Positions 3,248-25,656 of a stretch of 64,000 bases of DNA are shown one piece after another. Both the position numbers and the translations under genes were made by a program. Numbering within the stretch: position 1 is the stretch's first letter; each line of letters opens with the position of its first letter. The stretch comes from Colwellia sp. 75C3 (GTDB taxonomy: Bacteria; Pseudomonadota; Gammaproteobacteria; Enterobacterales; Alteromonadaceae). Under the pieces are notes generated by a model, which saw only the letters and a list, made by a program, of their open reading frames with translations, did no database searches and had not been told where the DNA came from. The stretch lies in NCBI RefSeq assembly GCF_002836255.1, contig NZ_PJAU01000033.1, positions 558,001-622,000 of the forward strand, in the 5' to 3' direction.

Positions 3248-4417
<1,170 letters not shown>

Positions 4418-17365: not shown

Positions 17366-17595
17366 GGCCAGAAGAGGAGCGTTAACCAGGTAATTACTAT
17401 TGTTTTGAGCAATTCAAAAGCAGAGATCAAACTCTGTAGATAGTAATGAGGGGGATTAACGCCGAGATAAATAGCTATTTGATAAGCTATTTATCGGTTG
17501 TGTACTTTATACCTTTATAAAGTAGTGGGCTGAATCCCAACAACTGTCACTTTGAATAACAACTATATAGTTGTTTAAGTGGGGAGCTTCTGGTC
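17366..17595 (+). ncRNA. Lysine riboswitch (L box) aptamer
   Basis: The order of conserved blocks matches the E. coli lysC leader: GGCCAGAAGAGG, then GAGGGGG, CGCCGAG, ATCGG, GGGCTGAATCCC, CTGTCAC and GTGGGGAGCTTCTGG. P1 is GGCCAGAAG (17366-17374) with CTTCTGGTC (17587-17595). P2 is GCGTTAA (17379-17385) with TTAACGC (17456-17462), capped by TTACTAT/ATAGTAA and two small hairpins. P3 is the 11-bp GATAAATAGCT stem (17466-17495). P4 carries the GGGCTGAATCCC element plus an extra inserted hairpin (17504-17523). P5 is CACTT/AAGTG (17548-17581) capped by a palindromic stem. Binding of lysine would repress the operon that follows. Confidence 0.95.
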
Positions 17596-17656
17596 TTTGC
17601 ATATTAGCCAAAATACCAGCCTTGCTGATGTTATGCTCTTCTTTGTCAACGCCCAG

Positions 17657-17764
17657 TACTCCGCACAATGTATCTAGTTTTATTAATCAAGCATGCTTAC
17701 CCATGTCTTTAATAACACGGATACTCATTATTTTTTATAGACTTTTTATCAGATAAGCGGAGTA
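17657..17764 (+). promoter_or_regulatory. Translational expression platform of the lysine riboswitch
   Basis: TACTCCGC (17657-17664) is perfectly complementary over eight bases to GCGGAGTA (17757-17764), which contains the dapD ribosome binding site five bases before the ATG. In the lysine-bound state this would hide the site. CTGGT (17590-17594), the 3' strand of P1, can instead pair with ACCAG (17615-17619), a candidate competing stem. No GC stem followed by a T run was seen, so control looks translational, not by termination. Confidence 0.7.
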
Positions 17765-17768
17765 ATAA

Positions 17769-18518
17769 ATGGATTGGCAAGATGTATTAGCACAGTTAGA
17801 ATCAGGTACTTTACGAGCGGCAAATCAAGATGATGCCGGTAACTGGCATGCCAATATTGAAGTGAAACAAGGTATTTTAGCTGCTTTTAAAGCGGGTGAA
17901 AACGTTGCTTTTAACGATAATTATCAGGGTTTTGTTGATAAGCACAACTTACCTGCTCGTCAATTTACACCACAAGACGGTGTTCGTTTAGTTCCTGGCG
18001 GCTCATCGGTCCGTGCCGGCGCTTACGTTGCCGAAGGCGTTATCATTATGCCACCAGCTTACATCAATGTAGGTGCCTTTGTTGATACCGGTACTATGGT
18101 TGATAGCCACGCTTTAATTGGCTCGTGTGCGCAAGTAGGTAAAAATGTCCACGTTTCAGCGGCGGTTCAAATTGGTGGAGTATTAGAGCCGATTGGTGCT
18201 AGCCCAGTGATTATTGAAGACGGTGCCTTTTTAAGTGCTGGTGTTGTTGTGGTTGAAGGCATTGTTGTTAAAAAAGGTGCGGTATTAGCACCGGGTGTCT
18301 CTCTTTCTAAGTCAGTGCCTGTTTATGATTGTGTTAATCAAGTCATGCGAGAAAAAGGTGCTGAAATTCCAGAACGTGCTGTTGTTGTTCCTGGTACCCG
18401 ACCTGTTAAAGGTGAATGGGCAGAAGAGCAAGGTTTAAGTATGGCCTGTGCGCTTATCGTTAAATATCGTGATGAAAAAAGCGATGCATCTCTAGAGTTA
18501 GAATCAATTTTACGTTAA
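17769..18518 (+). CDS. dapD: 2,3,4,5-tetrahydropyridine-2,6-dicarboxylate N-succinyltransferase, short form
   Basis: Transfers a succinyl group from succinyl-CoA to tetrahydrodipicolinate in lysine/diaminopimelate synthesis. The protein (249 residues) is shorter than E. coli DapD (274), with a reduced N-terminal domain, but the left-handed beta-helix core is clear: MPPAYINVGAFVDTGTMVDS, IGSCAQVGKNVHVS and IGGVLEPIGASPVIIED all resemble DapD. The C-terminal segment ACALIVKYRD matches the DapD end. It is the first gene behind the lysine riboswitch, with a GCGGAG ribosome binding site. It may be a second, lysine-dedicated copy, because the common dapD of gammaproteobacteria usually sits beside glnD and map. 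Confidence 0.88.
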   Translation: MDWQDVLAQLESGTLRAANQDDAGNWHANIEVKQGILAAFKAGENVAFNDNYQGFVDKHNLPARQFTPQDGVRLVPGGSSVRAGAYVAEGVIIMPPAYINVGAFVDTGTMVDSHALIGSCAQVGKNVHVSAAVQIGGVLEPIGASPVIIEDGAFLSAGVVVVEGIVVKKGAVLAPGVSLSKSVPVYDCVNQVMREKGAEIPERAVVVPGTRPVKGEWAEEQGLSMACALIVKYRDEKSDASLELESILR

Positions 18519-18698
18519 TTAATCATCTTGTCGTTGTATGGTCCAATCTATGTGTCAAAAGTACTCATTGATAGTCATCAACTCCGTGCTTTTTCCTTTA
18601 GTTTGAAACATACAACTTAAAGTTGAATAATTAATATACTCACTTGATTGAGTTCTGAAATTTAAAAGAAAACTATAAAGACAAATATAAAGAAAAGT

Positions 18699-19949
18699 AT
18701 GATGCCTAAATCCACTTGGTTTGACACCAGTATTGAACACGCCTTAATTTCCCATGAGTCACCAGAAGACGAGCAAGGTTATTATGTTTATCAACTCGAT
18801 GCACTTAAAGCACACTTAGCCGTTTTACAGCAGCAAGACGTGATTAAATTATGGTTTGCCGTTAAAGCTAATCCTTTATCAAAAGTTATTCAAACGCTTG
18901 ATAGTGAAGGTTTTAACTTTGATGTCGCCAGTACCGGTGAGTTAACTCAAGTTTTAGCGCAAGGCATAGACCCTAGTCGAGTATTAAATACCGGACCTGC
19001 TAAATCAAAAAAACAGCTCGCTGCATTTGTCAAAAAAGGTGTTCGTACTTTTGTAGTTGAAAGTCTAAATCAACTTAATTGGCTAAATGAAGTAGTGCTC
19101 GAGCAAGCTGAAGCATTAGGTAATGACGAAAAGCTTAAAGTGCTACTTAGAGTGCAATTACAATGGCATGAAGGCGAGAAAAACCCATTGGGTGGCAATA
19201 GTTTAACACCCTTTGGCCTATCAGTATCTGAGTGGCAGAATATCCATGTTGATAGTTATCCAGCTTTAGATTTATGTGGATTACATATTTTCCAATGGGG
19301 GAATATGTTGAGTAATGAAAAAATGTTTTCATTATGGTCTCAAATGATAACGCCTTTAACTGATTTAGCTAACAGCATTGGTATGACTTTGGATGTGCTC
19401 GATTTGGGTGGTGGTTTAGGTATTGATTATCTAAATGAAGGGCAGAAGTTGTCTTGGTCTCAAGTTATCAAAGACTTGGCTGTTATCAAAGAAAAGTCGG
19501 GTGTCAAAGAGTTATGGTTGGAGTTAGGACGTTTTGCTGTTGCAGAGTGCGGTTATTATGTCGTACCTGTGATTGATAGAAAAATGAATTATGATCAAGA
19601 GCAACTTGTATTAGCGGCGGGTATAAATCATTTATTACGTCCAGCAATCACCGACCAGCCTTTTCCTGTTCAAATATTACGTGAAGGTTTTTCAGCTGAA
19701 AAATCCACTATGCAAGCTTTTGATATTCATGGTCCTTTATGCACTAGCATGGATAAATTGGGGCACTTACCGTTACCAGAAGACATTGCTGTCGGTGAGC
19801 AGTTAGTGTTTGGCTATTGTGGCGCTTATGGTTTTACTGAAAGCATGCCGTTTTTCTTATGTCATGAATTAGCTGCTGAATATGTATATCAAAATGGCAG
19901 TTTAATCCAAGTTAGAGCAGCTCAGCCTGCTTCGTCTTATTTGGCTTAG
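18699..19949 (+). CDS. LysA-like PLP-dependent (fold III) amino-acid decarboxylase
   Basis: Alanine-racemase-fold decarboxylase of 416 residues, related to diaminopimelate decarboxylase. The PLP lysine is K56 in FAVKANPL, the phosphate-binding loop is LDLGGGLGID (234-243), the active-site cysteine lies in GPLCTSMD (345-352), and CGAYGF (374-379) matches LysA. Two signature positions differ: the usual EPGR is LELGR (275-279), and the usual HxGS segment is GLHIFQWGN (194-202). Riboswitch control by lysine and the dapD neighbour make decarboxylation of meso-diaminopimelate to lysine the likeliest role; a carboxynorspermidine-type or other basic amino-acid substrate is possible. It lies 180 bases after dapD and 13 before the deacylase. 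A second ATG directly follows the first. Confidence 0.75.
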   Translation: MMPKSTWFDTSIEHALISHESPEDEQGYYVYQLDALKAHLAVLQQQDVIKLWFAVKANPLSKVIQTLDSEGFNFDVASTGELTQVLAQGIDPSRVLNTGPAKSKKQLAAFVKKGVRTFVVESLNQLNWLNEVVLEQAEALGNDEKLKVLLRVQLQWHEGEKNPLGGNSLTPFGLSVSEWQNIHVDSYPALDLCGLHIFQWGNMLSNEKMFSLWSQMITPLTDLANSIGMTLDVLDLGGGLGIDYLNEGQKLSWSQVIKDLAVIKEKSGVKELWLELGRFAVAECGYYVVPVIDRKMNYDQEQLVLAAGINHLLRPAITDQPFPVQILREGFSAEKSTMQAFDIHGPLCTSMDKLGHLPLPEDIAVGEQLVFGYCGAYGFTESMPFFLCHELAAEYVYQNGSLIQVRAAQPASSYLA

Positions 19950-19962
19950 TTGAGGAATTAAA

Positions 19963-21093
19963 ATGAATAAATTTACCAAAGAGGTTATGTCTGTTGGCGA
20001 AATGGCAAGTGGTGCTAAGCTAACCGTTCCTGTTTATGCATTTCAATCTGAAAATAGCTCTGCTCCCAATGTTTATATTCAGGCCAATATGCATGGCGCT
20101 GAAGTTCAAGGCAATGCCGTTATTTTCCAGTTGCTTGAGCTACTACAACATTGCGATATACAAGCGAATATTACCCTAGTACCTTATGCTAACCCTGTTG
20201 CGTGTAATCATAAAAATGGTGAGTATACCTTAGGTCGTTTTGATCCCATTACAGGTGTAAACTGGAACCGAATGTATCACTTTGATCCAAGTATTGTGGA
20301 ACCTTTTGTTCAACAATATCTAGATGCCAGTGAAGAAGAAATAAAAGCTAAATTTCAGCAACTTTTACTTGCTGAAATAGAGAAGAAATTAGAACACAAT
20401 ATCTGGGGCATAACTACGGGGCAACGTATCGCTTATCAGTTACAACAACTTGCCCATCAAGCAGATATCGTTTTAGACTTACATACAGGCCCTATTTCAA
20501 GTAAGCACCTCTATTGCCCTGAATATGCACAGGCGAGCGCTGAATATTTCGATATTGAACATACCATTTTGATTCAAAATGACTTTGATGGCGCAATGGA
20601 TGAAGCCACTTTTTGTCCATGGTGGAGTTTACAACAAGCCTATCAAGCATCAGGAAGAAACTTTACTATGGGGAAGGGAGCCTTTAAGAAGGAAAGTTTT
20701 ACTGTTGAGCTTGGCTCTCAAGAGCAAATCGACTTAGATGTAGCCAAGCAAGATGCACTCGGTATTTTATCTTATTTAGAGTATCAGGGTGTTATTGATA
20801 ATAAGCAGTATCAGCCACAAAAAATGACCCGATATGCGTGTTATCTAAAAGATTATAAAGCCTTATATTCACCTATGGGCGGCATGGTCGATTATCTTGC
20901 TGAGTTCGGAAAGCCTTTAGCTGCAGGCGAGCCGCTAGCACGGATTCTTCGTATGGATAATTATGGTGATGGTGAAGCCTTACATTATGTGTCACTTGAG
21001 CAGCAAGTCATCCCTATTTTACACTTTGCTTCTGCTAGTGTTAATCAAGGAACTGAGTTGTATAAAGTTTTTTGTAATTACTTTGAGCTTTAA
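19963..21093 (+). CDS. AstE/aspartoacylase-family zinc deacylase
   Basis: Zinc-dependent amide hydrolase (M14-like) of 376 residues. Zinc ligands are H44 and E47 in NMHGAEVQGN and H174 in VLDLHTGP; the general base is E249 in VELGSQE. Known members remove succinyl or acetyl groups from amino acids. It begins 13 bases after the LysA-like gene with TGAGGAA before the ATG, so it belongs to the same lysine-riboswitch operon, and a terminator follows. By context it may desuccinylate N-succinyl-diaminopimelate, the job normally done by the unrelated DapE. That is inference: true AstE acts on succinylglutamate and lies with astCAD, which are absent here. Confidence 0.75.
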   Translation: MNKFTKEVMSVGEMASGAKLTVPVYAFQSENSSAPNVYIQANMHGAEVQGNAVIFQLLELLQHCDIQANITLVPYANPVACNHKNGEYTLGRFDPITGVNWNRMYHFDPSIVEPFVQQYLDASEEEIKAKFQQLLLAEIEKKLEHNIWGITTGQRIAYQLQQLAHQADIVLDLHTGPISSKHLYCPEYAQASAEYFDIEHTILIQNDFDGAMDEATFCPWWSLQQAYQASGRNFTMGKGAFKKESFTVELGSQEQIDLDVAKQDALGILSYLEYQGVIDNKQYQPQKMTRYACYLKDYKALYSPMGGMVDYLAEFGKPLAAGEPLARILRMDNYGDGEALHYVSLEQQVIPILHFASASVNQGTELYKVFCNYFEL

Positions 21094-21127
21094 TGTTTAC
21101 TAGTACTTAACATTGTGACAAGTCCTT

Positions 21128-21166
21128 AAAAAGCAGCTGCTGAATAGTATCAATAGCTGCTTTTTT
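21128..21166 (+). terminator. Intrinsic terminator after the lysine operon
   Basis: AAAAAGCAGCT (21128-21138) pairs with AGCTGCTTTTT (21155-21165) around a 16-base loop, followed by T residues. It is convergent with the gene at 21197 and may serve both. Confidence 0.8.
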
Positions 21167-23043: not shown

Positions 23044-23151
23044 ATAGTGAAGTACTTATTTTATCAAGTAATGCTTCCCTTAGCTGCCACTCTGCGACTA
23101 TAAATTTGCAAAGTGATCTGCATCTTTCAAAAAATTATCGGAAACCAGTTT

Positions 23152-25656
23152 ATGTCTTTTGTGACTCATAAGAGTATCAATGTTCAAGTAAAATCACCGT
23201 TCAAAAAAATAGTAAATGCCACGGTACTCTCTACATTCGGCACCCTATTATGTTTTAGCCAAAACGTTTTAGCCCAGCAGATATCAGGTCTTGTATTAAA
23301 TAAACAAGGTCAGCCTATTAATAATGCCATAGTCGAATTAGGACTGGACTTACAGAAAGTTCGGACGAATTCTCAGGGGGTATTTAGTTTTACAAATGTT
23401 AAAGAAGGGTTTTTTGAACTTCATATCAGTGCTAAGAGCTATGGTCATAGCAATCAACAAGTTGTTGTTAGAGAAGATGTTACTGACTTGAATGTTGTCT
23501 TGTCTAGATCTGTAATGGAAGTGATTGATGTGCATAGCACGCCTTTGCATACTTCTTCAATTGAATCAGCATTACCTATTAATGTGCTCAGTGAAGATGA
23601 ATTGAAAATGAAACAAGCGTCGACTTTGGGGGAAACCTTGAAAAATGAAGTGGGCGTTCACTCTAGTTATTATGGCCCTGTTGCTAGCACCCCCATAATT
23701 AGAGGCTTGGACGGCCCTAGAGTACTGATTACACAAAATGGATTAGATGTGGGCGATGCTTCTCGTGTAGGTCCAGATCATGTTGTTGCTACCGAAACTA
23801 GCACTGCAACGCAAATAGAGGTGTTACGTGGTCCAGCAACGCTTTTTTATGGTAGTGGCGCTATTGGAGGTGTAGTTAATGTGGTTGATAATCGCGTGCC
23901 AACGAGTAGTGATGATGAAGTTGATTACTTGTTACAATATAACGATGTTTCTAATGAACAGCAGGCCTCCATTAATATCCAAACGGGTACCGATAATATC
24001 GCTTTTCATTTAGATGGCTTTTGGCGTGACTCAAAAGACTACAAGCTTGCCGGAGAGGCAGACATTCATGAAGAAGAGCACGAAGACCACCTCCATGAAG
24101 AGGATGAAGATCACGAAACTCATGGTGACACTCGTTTAGATAATAGTGCTAGTACTGCTAGTGGCGCAACATTGGGTTCAAGTTATTTATTTGAAGATGG
24201 CTTTATAGGTTTCTCTTATGGTTTTATGAACAGAGAATACGGTATTCCAGGGCATAGTCATGAAGAAGAACATATCGACGAAGATCCACTACATTTAGCG
24301 ACTGAAGATGATGAACATGCCGGTGTTTTCGCAAAAATGCAGCAAGATAGATGGCAGGTGCTTGGCGAGTATAATATTGAGCAACAATTTATCAGCAAGA
24401 TCGCAACAAAATTTGCCTATAGTGACTATCAGCATCAAGAGATTGAGTCAGGTTTAGTCGGTACAACATTTACAAATAAAAGTACTGAAGCACGTATTGA
24501 CTTATTCCACCAGGATACTTATGGATGGCAAGGTGCATGGACAGTTCATTACAAAGCATCAGACTTTAAAGCCTTAGGTGAAGAAGCTTTCTCACCACCC
24601 TCTAAATCGGAAATGCTTGCTATTGCCTGGTTAGAAGAGAAACATTTTGGACCCGTGTTATTGCAATTAGGCGCTAGGGTAGAGCAAGTTAATATAGAGG
24701 CCGATGATAGCTTGATTGGCTTTGAAGACCCTCATCATGATGAATTATCGACAGAGCCTTCACATAATGAGCACCATGAAACATTAGTCTCATTTGATCA
24801 ACAGTCATTTACGCCAATTAGTGCTTCTGCGGGGTTAGTCTGGGATTACCAATCAGGCTATAACTTAGGGATTTCAATGGCATTGTCTCAACGAGCAGCG
24901 TCTTCAGGAGAGTTGTTTTCATTCGGTCCGCACATAGGTACAAATACTTTTGAAGTTGGTGCTATGTTCGATGTACATCAAGAAGGTGATGAAATTCATG
25001 TCGAGTTAGCTGAACAAGCGCCTAGTGTTGAAACATCCCTTAATTTTGATATAACTTTCCGAAAATTCAACGGTGATTTTGGTTATGTCGTTAGCGCTTT
25101 TTATAATCGTATTGATGATTACTATTATCAACAAGATACCGGTTTGGTTTTTGTGGAAGATCATGGTCATGAGGATGAGCATGAAGGTGAATCAGGCTTA
25201 CCAATTTTAGTATACCAACAGGATGATGTTGAGATGTACGGTACTGAAGCTGAGTTTTTCTATCAAGTATCATCAGCTTTCAAGACAAGTTTAATTGCTG
25301 ATTATATTCGAGCGCGGTTAGTGAATGCAGATGAAAACGATAACTTACCACGCATCCCTCCTATGCGAATTGGCGCTATCATGAACTACCAAGCAGATAC
25401 ATTTGATAGTGAATTAAGTGTAAGCCATTATTTTGAGCAAGATGATATATCGGAACTAGAAACTAATACCGATAGCTACACTATGATTGATGCTAACTTT
25501 AATTATTATGTTGCTGGTGTTGGTGATGATTTAACCTTGTATTTAAAAGGGCAAAACCTAACAAATGAACATGCCCGTGTACATTCATCATTTTTAAAAG
25601 AAGTGGCTCCATTACCGGGACGCAACTTTAGTGTTGGTATCCGTGGTAGTTTTTAA
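23152..25656 (+). CDS. TonB-dependent receptor, His-rich, probable zinc uptake (ZnuD-like)
   Basis: Outer-membrane active transporter, 834 residues from the ATG at 23152; a GTG 39 bases upstream is less likely. A signal peptide ends near NVLAQQ (residue 41). An N-terminal carboxypeptidase-regulatory-like beta-sandwich (43-115), a plug domain (about 125-255, with PIIRGLDGPRVLITQNG and IEVLRGPATLFYGSGAIGG) and a C-terminal barrel follow. At least four predicted loops are packed with His, Glu and Asp, near residues 305-326, 367-391, 527-545 and 670-681. Such loops are typical of the zinc receptor ZnuD. The Zur-like box upstream of the preceding gene supports zinc as substrate. Nickel or copper remain possible. 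Confidence 0.85.
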   Translation: MSFVTHKSINVQVKSPFKKIVNATVLSTFGTLLCFSQNVLAQQISGLVLNKQGQPINNAIVELGLDLQKVRTNSQGVFSFTNVKEGFFELHISAKSYGHSNQQVVVREDVTDLNVVLSRSVMEVIDVHSTPLHTSSIESALPINVLSEDELKMKQASTLGETLKNEVGVHSSYYGPVASTPIIRGLDGPRVLITQNGLDVGDASRVGPDHVVATETSTATQIEVLRGPATLFYGSGAIGGVVNVVDNRVPTSSDDEVDYLLQYNDVSNEQQASINIQTGTDNIAFHLDGFWRDSKDYKLAGEADIHEEEHEDHLHEEDEDHETHGDTRLDNSASTASGATLGSSYLFEDGFIGFSYGFMNREYGIPGHSHEEEHIDEDPLHLATEDDEHAGVFAKMQQDRWQVLGEYNIEQQFISKIATKFAYSDYQHQEIESGLVGTTFTNKSTEARIDLFHQDTYGWQGAWTVHYKASDFKALGEEAFSPPSKSEMLAIAWLEEKHFGPVLLQLGARVEQVNIEADDSLIGFEDPHHDELSTEPSHNEHHETLVSFDQQSFTPISASAGLVWDYQSGYNLGISMALSQRAASSGELFSFGPHIGTNTFEVGAMFDVHQEGDEIHVELAEQAPSVETSLNFDITFRKFNGDFGYVVSAFYNRIDDYYYQQDTGLVFVEDHGHEDEHEGESGLPILVYQQDDVEMYGTEAEFFYQVSSAFKTSLIADYIRARLVNADENDNLPRIPPMRIGAIMNYQADTFDSELSVSHYFEQDDISELETNTDSYTMIDANFNYYVAGVGDDLTLYLKGQNLTNEHARVHSSFLKEVAPLPGRNFSVGIRGSF

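Follow-up and report, generated by a model that had tools for sequence, protein, structure and literature searches.

To our knowledge, all established variants of the diaminopimelate (DAP) type of lysine synthesis pass through meso-DAP, so that cutting lysine synthesis risks the supply of the cell wall. The closest described system is a riboswitch operon of the order dapA-dapD-lysA-hypothetical-hypothetical in Pseudoalteromonas, listed in Table 1 of PMC5584792 together with a dapD preceded by a riboswitch in Colwellia psychrerythraea; according to the available passages of that paper, the operon originated in the ancestor of Pseudoalteromonas and the Colwellia dapD is independently regulated. 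Here we describe a locus of Colwellia sp. 75C3, lying in a window of 64,000 nucleotides (assembly GCF_002836255.1, contig NZ_PJAU01000033.1, positions 558,001 to 622,000), in which a lysine riboswitch is followed by genes for a DapD-type succinyltransferase (P0001), a pyridoxal phosphate (PLP) decarboxylase (P0002) and an AstE/aspartoacylase-type deacylase (P0003) (Table 1). As the best explanation, to which we assign a probability of roughly 0.55, we propose that this set is a riboswitch-controlled branch of the succinylase pathway by which lysine is made without meso-DAP.

From the computed aptamer, gene set, conservation, paralogues, active-site residues and phylogeny, we infer the substrates, reaction order, regulation and physiological purpose of the branch as follows: 1) P0001 would succinylate tetrahydrodipicolinate; 2) a shared aminotransferase would then give N-succinyl-LL-DAP; 3) P0002 would strip the carboxyl group from the free end of the still succinylated N-succinyl-LL-DAP, yielding N2-succinyl-L-lysine; 4) P0003 would take the succinyl group off N2-succinyl-L-lysine to give lysine; 5) lysine bound to the leader would lower the output of the gene set, most likely, where a dapA paralogue (dapA2) is present, by making the ribosome site of the first gene inaccessible; and 6) separate dapA, dapD, dapE and lysA genes would keep meso-DAP flowing to the cell wall. 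A substrate with a distal carboxylate and without a free distal amine, handled between enzymes of the DapD and AstE types under the control of lysine, points to N-succinyl-LL-DAP going in and N2-succinyl-lysine coming out, and we place the decarboxylase before the deacylase because of the residues and the phylogeny of P0002. The branch would have in common with the succinylase pathway (DapD-DapC-DapE-DapF-LysA) the DapD chemistry and, presumably, the aminotransferase, but it would decarboxylate before desuccinylation and skip both LL-DAP and meso-DAP. An earlier reading of the same DNA made from the letters alone (the sequence-only reading) had suggested a set for succinylation, desuccinylation and decarboxylation in lysine synthesis; the lysine-specific set under a lysine riboswitch stands, whereas the usual order with a LysA-type last step is at odds with those residues and that phylogeny.

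P0002 passes the Pfam models Orn_Arg_deC_N and Orn_DAP_Arg_deC as a fold III PLP decarboxylase, but it scores only 175.2 bits against the lysA model TIGR01048 (cut-off 297.9), with none of the 35 operon copies exceeding 209 bits, and 176.9 bits against the model of the exosortase-associated decarboxylase, also under the cut-off. In the LysA of T. maritima, Arg249 and Arg285 bind the distal carboxylate of DAP and Glu315 the distal amino group, and the E315T variant lost most of its activity on DAP and became mainly a decarboxylase of 2-aminopimelate, a substrate without the distal amine (available passages of PMC8277567). The matching residues Arg278, Arg314 and Thr349 are found in 115/115 aligned rows of operon decarboxylases (the window, 80 named loci and 34 sample loci, sets that overlap in some genomes); at the Thr349 position, Glu occupies 18/18 rows over the lysA cut-off, while four LysA-like rows under it harbor Thr (3) or Phe (1). 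This match to T. maritima, the sequence of which lies outside the alignment, was drawn by way of the motifs EPGR/ELGR, RP and C-E/C-T together with equal spacings (36 for 249-285 and 278-314; 28 for 315-343 and 349-377). P0002 fell outside the LysA clade in a first tree of 54 rows (support 97/92), and in a second tree of 39 rows, from which 18 rows were removed (5 with long branches and 13 relatives to thin the set) and to which 3 Francisella-like rows were added, a LysA clade with 100/100 support left out P0002, with the operon and distant enzymes forming one clade of 100/100. Judged by its own clade, the missed cut-off and Thr in place of Glu, P0002 is, at the level of sequence, not a LysA. 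Both proteins have the fold, the PLP lysine and the two carboxylate-binding arginines in common; they differ in the Glu to Thr change at the distal-amine site and in a loop reading HIFQWGN in P0002 against HIGSQ in LysA. The "divergent LysA-type decarboxylase" of the sequence-only reading is borne out as to the decarboxylase family, but not as to LysA itself.

Among solved structures, a profile search with P0002 ranked SbnH highest (175.4 bits), followed by BtrK (146.8) and LysA (142.5 and lower). SbnH, the staphyloferrin B decarboxylase (6knh; Table 1 of PMC7139808 in its available part, with which the PDB titles agree), resembles P0002 in its fold III PLP architecture and its CT motif, but lacks Arg314 and forms a separate clade in the second tree. 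We have not retained SbnH as the sister group of P0002, a placement with 92/88 support in the first tree that was not recovered in the second, long branches being flagged in both; any position of P0002 relative to SbnH, BtrK and the exosortase-type enzymes is tentative. SbnH and BtrK, both of which also have Thr at the Thr349 position, take as substrates L-amino acids that are acylated or bound to a carrier. Given the motif features that P0002 has in common with this group, it is plausible by analogy that P0002 acts on an L centre.

P0001 surpasses the curated dapD cut-off of NF008808 (204 bits) and falls under that of TIGR00965 (191.4 vs. 375.4 bits); by the former it is a DapD-type N-succinyltransferase, as the sequence-only reading had it, with use of succinyl-CoA and tetrahydrodipicolinate predicted. 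Elsewhere in the genome (5.4 Mb in 60 contigs, close to named Colwellia species with a decarboxylase identity of 93% at best) we found a second DapD on contig C44, 43% identical to P0001 and with rpiA- and glnD-like neighbors (by eye), and, each over its cut-off, LysA (C33, 483.8 bits), DapE (C3, 538.6 bits) and dapA (C12, 226.7 bits), so that the operon is not simply the only copy of these functions and the usual genes do lie elsewhere, as had been supposed. A second lysine riboswitch (82.2 bits) lies on C59 with an aspartokinase gene (named by eye) downstream. The runner-up explanation, which we nevertheless consider unlikely, is that the operon encodes lysine-regulated isozymes of the ordinary pathway, with P0001 as DapD, P0003 as a substitute for DapE, P0002 as an additional LysA with meso-DAP as its substrate and a shared DapF in between. 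Consistent with this, dapA2 and P0001 pass the curated dapA and dapD cut-offs, and the three genomes described below that keep the riboswitch, dapA2 and P0003 without the decarboxylase would suit a DapE-like role. However, P0002 lacks the Glu for a free distal amine in every aligned row and stands apart from LysA in score and clade, and the genomes with the operon are already furnished with a LysA (35/35) and, in 34/35, a DapE over the cut-off.

We also observed a third LysA-like decarboxylase gene in the same genome (L005 1354-2631, G000 C55), whose product scores 233.9 bits, short of the lysA cut-off, and has Phe in place of Glu or Thr; by eye, the gene behind it encodes a GltS-like symporter. 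The LysA of four genomes of the window's genus (G000:C33, G078:C55, G038:C35 and G109:C1; 474-484 bits) sits on one LysA branch and that found in the majority of the other operon genomes (527-550 bits) on another, and both kinds are present in G021, G041 and G099.

Across 118 genomes of the family, decarboxylase orthologues occur in 35 with scores of at least 516 bits, far above the 140 bits of the next match; all 35 also have the neighboring dapD paralogue and the deacylase, and the dapD paralogue (E-value <= 1e-70) is found in exactly the same 35 genomes. Among named loci, taken as the best 80 of 161 relatives found, the three genes appear in order in 80/80, spread over Colwellia, Litorilituus, Thalassotalea, Thalassomonas, Cognaticolwellia and Pseudoalteromonas, together with some records that carry a name only at the level of family or order. 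We surmise that dapA2 is probably ancestral, and was lost in the lineage of the window and elsewhere, because a dapA lies in front in 58 of these 80 loci and a dapA-type gene stands between the riboswitch and dapD in 26 of the 34 relatives in the genome sample (all 26 passing the dapA cut-off). The neighborhood comparison that the sequence-only reading had proposed thus upholds the three-gene set and adds a gene missing from the window. The dapD and decarboxylase genes overlap by 1 nucleotide in four of seven opened loci (three from Pseudoalteromonas and one of two from Thalassotalea), which speaks for a single transcript there. No close relative was found on plasmids, the 156 plasmid records all being under 60% identity.

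The aptamer, predicted from the letters to start at 17366, 2 nucleotides off, matches RF00168 with an E-value of 5.7e-19 over the full model (1-182) and is the sole match at gathering score in the window; by the curated threshold and the full-length alignment it is a lysine riboswitch, its response to lysine being predicted. A lysine riboswitch precedes the cassette in 33/35 operon genomes, namely the window and 32/34 relatives (11/13, 13/13 and 8/8). In 26/26 leaders bearing dapA2, an upstream segment can pair with the ribosome site of dapA2 just before the start codon, and the 3' end of the aptamer contains GGAGAGCTT or a close form, a possible competitor for that segment; the hairpin motif has one common form in 23 of these leaders and a variant in the 3 from Pseudoalteromonas. 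The pattern was drawn up after part of the same leaders had been inspected; the partner that it picked out in L073 and L075 is a second candidate, lying upstream of the one closest to the ribosome site. Because these leaders can hide the ribosome site in a hairpin with which the aptamer end competes, lysine control is probably exerted at the level of translation in relatives with dapA2. In the leader of the window, TACTCCGC (17657-17664) is complementary over 8 nucleotides to GCGGAGTA (17757-17764) at the ribosome site of dapD, a pairing that is complete in both the window and L076, 7 nucleotides long in L088 and 6 in L078, and missing from the other 8 of the 12 Colwellia-type leaders scored (the scoring found no start in L083, L087 and L091). 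As 26/500 shuffles did as well and conservation is poor, we do not claim a re-wired pairing.

A distant version of the operon emerged from a class-wide sample of 369 genomes, in which the decarboxylase (E-value <= 1e-70) occurs in four: the window's own and three of a single genus (G166, G304 and G409), whose enzymes score 480-495 bits at 45-49% identity and keep R, R and T. These three, which we take to be Francisella-like, have genomes of 2.0-2.1 Mb and loci of 31-34% guanine plus cytosine, with DUF3568 proteins near two of the three operon loci and FslC in G304 (808.7 bits, cut-off 500). Their gene order is lysine riboswitch, aspartokinase (lysC), dapB-like gene, dapA, dapD and decarboxylase. 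Family tests, made on L211 only, assigned a lysine-sensitive aspartokinase 3 (570.2 bits, cut-off 455), dapA (268.7, cut-off 206.15) and dapD (NF008808, 295.9, cut-off 204), with dapB under its cut-off (81.9 vs. 122) and the decarboxylase likewise under that of lysA (226 bits). The dapD and decarboxylase genes overlap by 1 base in L211 and L212, though not in L213. An aminotransferase-like gene lies upstream of the operon in L211 and L212 and directly downstream in L213; its best matches, in L211 and L213 where it was tested, are aspartate aminotransferases, under the cut-off. In L212, a second lysine riboswitch (3470-3649) was seen beside this gene, overlapping its called start, and the L212 gene is a candidate for the shared transaminase step.

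In G304, no match to dapD, dapE, dapF or lysA other than the dapD and decarboxylase of the operon and FslC was seen by tblastn (E-value <= 1e-4) in 779,001 bases, or about 38% of the genome, a share that cannot show absence, and we make no claim that this genome uses the proposed route exclusively. A Francisella model paper states that DAP cannot be synthesized yet lysine can (PMC2933595), and a review, in conflict with it, puts lysine among the auxotrophies of Francisella (PMC5368251); the available passages of neither name these three genomes. P0003-like proteins (E-value <= 1e-60) occur in 6 of the 369 class genomes, including all four with the decarboxylase. In one Francisella-like genome (L163; 1-2207 and 5728-6819), the P0003-like gene lies about 3.5 kb from open reading frames (ORFs) of saccharopine-dehydrogenase and aldehyde-dehydrogenase type (by eye), neighbors that possibly serve lysine degradation.

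The third gene product was rightly recognized from the letters as an AstE/aspartoacylase-type deacylase, since it passes the Pfam model AstE_AspA_cat (PF24827; 99.8 bits, cut-off 25) and retains the residues which we take to be zinc ligands or catalytic: over 114 operon rows, H44 and E47 are each found in 114, H174 in 113 (1 gap) and E249 in 112 (2 gaps). P0003 gave no match to the DapE model TIGR01246 at an E-value of 0.1 or below. Close relatives among solved structures (3lwu and 3fmc; phmmer E-values of 1e-125 and 1.3e-124) carry names at the family level only, unlike the specific role proposed for P0003. Close orthologues (636 bits or more) occur in 42 genomes of the family, and 30 further family genomes have P0003-like proteins at 316-463 bits, which are 44-50% identical in four loci. 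In six opened loci of the latter kind (L161, L162 and L207-L210) no lysine-biosynthesis gene was recognized by eye, and two of them (L161 and L210) lie beside genes of molybdenum-cofactor type. Near the putative zinc and catalytic residues, positions 42, 155, 175 and 356 differ in these paralogues and not in the lone copies; P0003 belongs to a broader family and was perhaps recruited to the operon.

A number of observations weigh against a meso-DAP-independent route. With respect to the deacylase, 7 of the 42 genomes with a close P0003 orthologue lack both dapD2 and the decarboxylase: G003 (L200), G052 (L204) and G087 (L203) have reduced operons of riboswitch, dapA2 and P0003, the other two genes having gone together, and G012, G046, G084 and G112 have P0003 with neither riboswitch nor dapA2 at the locus. 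The reduced operons suggest that P0003 is useful without the decarboxylase. The putative zinc and catalytic residues are identical in operon, lone and six aligned paralogous copies, so that no residue marks a special substrate of P0003, and the P0003-like gene lies apart from the operon in each of the three distant genomes. As to the decarboxylase, the E315T LysA remained specific for the D centre (PMC8277567, available passages), while the predicted substrate of P0002 has an L configuration at the reacting centre. Thr349 may have been inherited from an SbnH/BtrK-like ancestor, as that group has it too. We set aside a fold comparison of the P0002 model (pLDDT, the predicted local distance difference test, 84.9) as evidence on substrate, the best LysA, SbnH and BtrK structures being tied at Z 37-39. 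As for regulation, two close Colwellia relatives have the cassette with no riboswitch at gathering score (L042 = L086 and L043 = L089), and the conserved hairpin motif is missing from the leader of the window, which has no dapA2.

Some of these points would be accommodated if P0001 and P0002 made N2-succinyl-lysine, another enzyme such as DapE desuccinylated it and P0003 were a co-transcribed general deacylase, an arrangement to which we give somewhat less credence than to the isozymes. The seven genomes that keep P0003 without the pair, the more distant relatives in 30 others and the unlinked gene in the distant genomes agree with it; against it, P0003 follows the pair in 35/35 operon genomes and 80/80 named loci, and a P0003-like gene accompanies the decarboxylase in 4/4 genomes of the class sample. 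That the set makes a special product related to lysine (e.g., an N-acyl diamine or part of a siderophore), with lysine as signal only, seems the least probable of all, for although the relatives SbnH (PMC7139808, in the part available) and BtrK (PDB titles) serve siderophore and antibiotic synthesis, on inspection by eye of opened loci we recognized neither a synthetase nor an exporter gene inside the cassette, and in the distant version its neighbors are lysC, dapB and dapA.

As to the layout in the window, the three genes follow the aptamer on one strand and end at a hairpin, much as first described (Table 1). The hairpin, read by eye, has an 11-bp stem (21128-21138 / 21155-21165) and a T run to 21166, and faces a convergent ORF; its 16-nucleotide loop exceeds the 3-8 nucleotide range of our terminator scan, from which it is absent. 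The gap of 180 nucleotides between the dapD paralogue and the decarboxylase gene possibly holds an internal promoter; promoter-like sites in the same scan were at chance level (15 found vs. 12.5 in shuffles, standard deviation 3.9). Downstream of the operon (23113-25656) is a large ORF resembling a TonB receptor and rich in His, Asp and Glu over long stretches, a metal-uptake receptor by its look only.

Table 1. Features of the lysine riboswitch operon, in positions of the window
Feature	Position	Strand	Remarks
Lysine riboswitch aptamer, RF00168	17364..17597	+	78.9 bits vs. gathering score of 30
Leader from aptamer to dapD paralogue	17598..17768	+	lacks the dapA paralogue present here in most relatives
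P0001, DapD paralogue, predicted tetrahydrodipicolinate N-succinyltransferase	17769..18518	+	249 amino acids; NF008808, 296.6 bits
P0002, decarboxylase, predicted N-succinyl-LL-diaminopimelate decarboxylase	18699..19949	+	416 amino acids; K56, R278, R314, C348, T349, Y377
P0003, AstE/aspartoacylase-type deacylase, predicted N2-succinyl-lysine desuccinylase	19963..21093	+	376 amino acids; H44, E47, H174, E249
Terminator-like hairpin and T run	21128..21166	+	read from the sequence by eye

Compared with the Pseudoalteromonas operon of PMC5584792, the cassette has the same order from dapA to decarboxylase and the same riboswitch class, and the Pseudoalteromonas loci we opened carry this very set; in the available passages of that paper, however, the decarboxylase is called lysA and no deacylase is named. 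The sequence-only reading, which knew of no described operon with this content, was accordingly half right, the dapD-lysA part having been listed before. As far as those passages go, what we add is 1) a wider spread, the cassette being found also in Colwellia, Litorilituus, Thalassotalea, Thalassomonas, Cognaticolwellia and a Francisella-like lineage; 2) the loss of dapA2 in Colwellia; 3) the constant presence of the deacylase; 4) the Francisella-like version; 5) the misfit between the decarboxylase and LysA; and 6) the proposed meso-DAP-independent route. We found no description of a route by succinylated decarboxylation in the open-licence literature searched.

We hold it an even chance that this represents a further bacterial route to lysine, in which N-succinyl-LL-DAP is decarboxylated directly, meso-DAP is never formed, and the enzymes for lysine and those for cell-wall DAP are under separate control; it may be the main or the only route of the Francisella-like lineage. 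The proposed route bears on the puzzling statement for Francisella that lysine is made and DAP is not (PMC2933595, in its available passages). If true, it would provide a way to lysine without need for DapF, a single residue, Glu or Thr, would predict the substrate of the decarboxylase, and the operon proteins annotated LysA in marine Gammaproteobacteria would be misnamed. Above all, a succinyl-protected branch of this kind would uncouple the synthesis of lysine from the supply of DAP to the cell wall.

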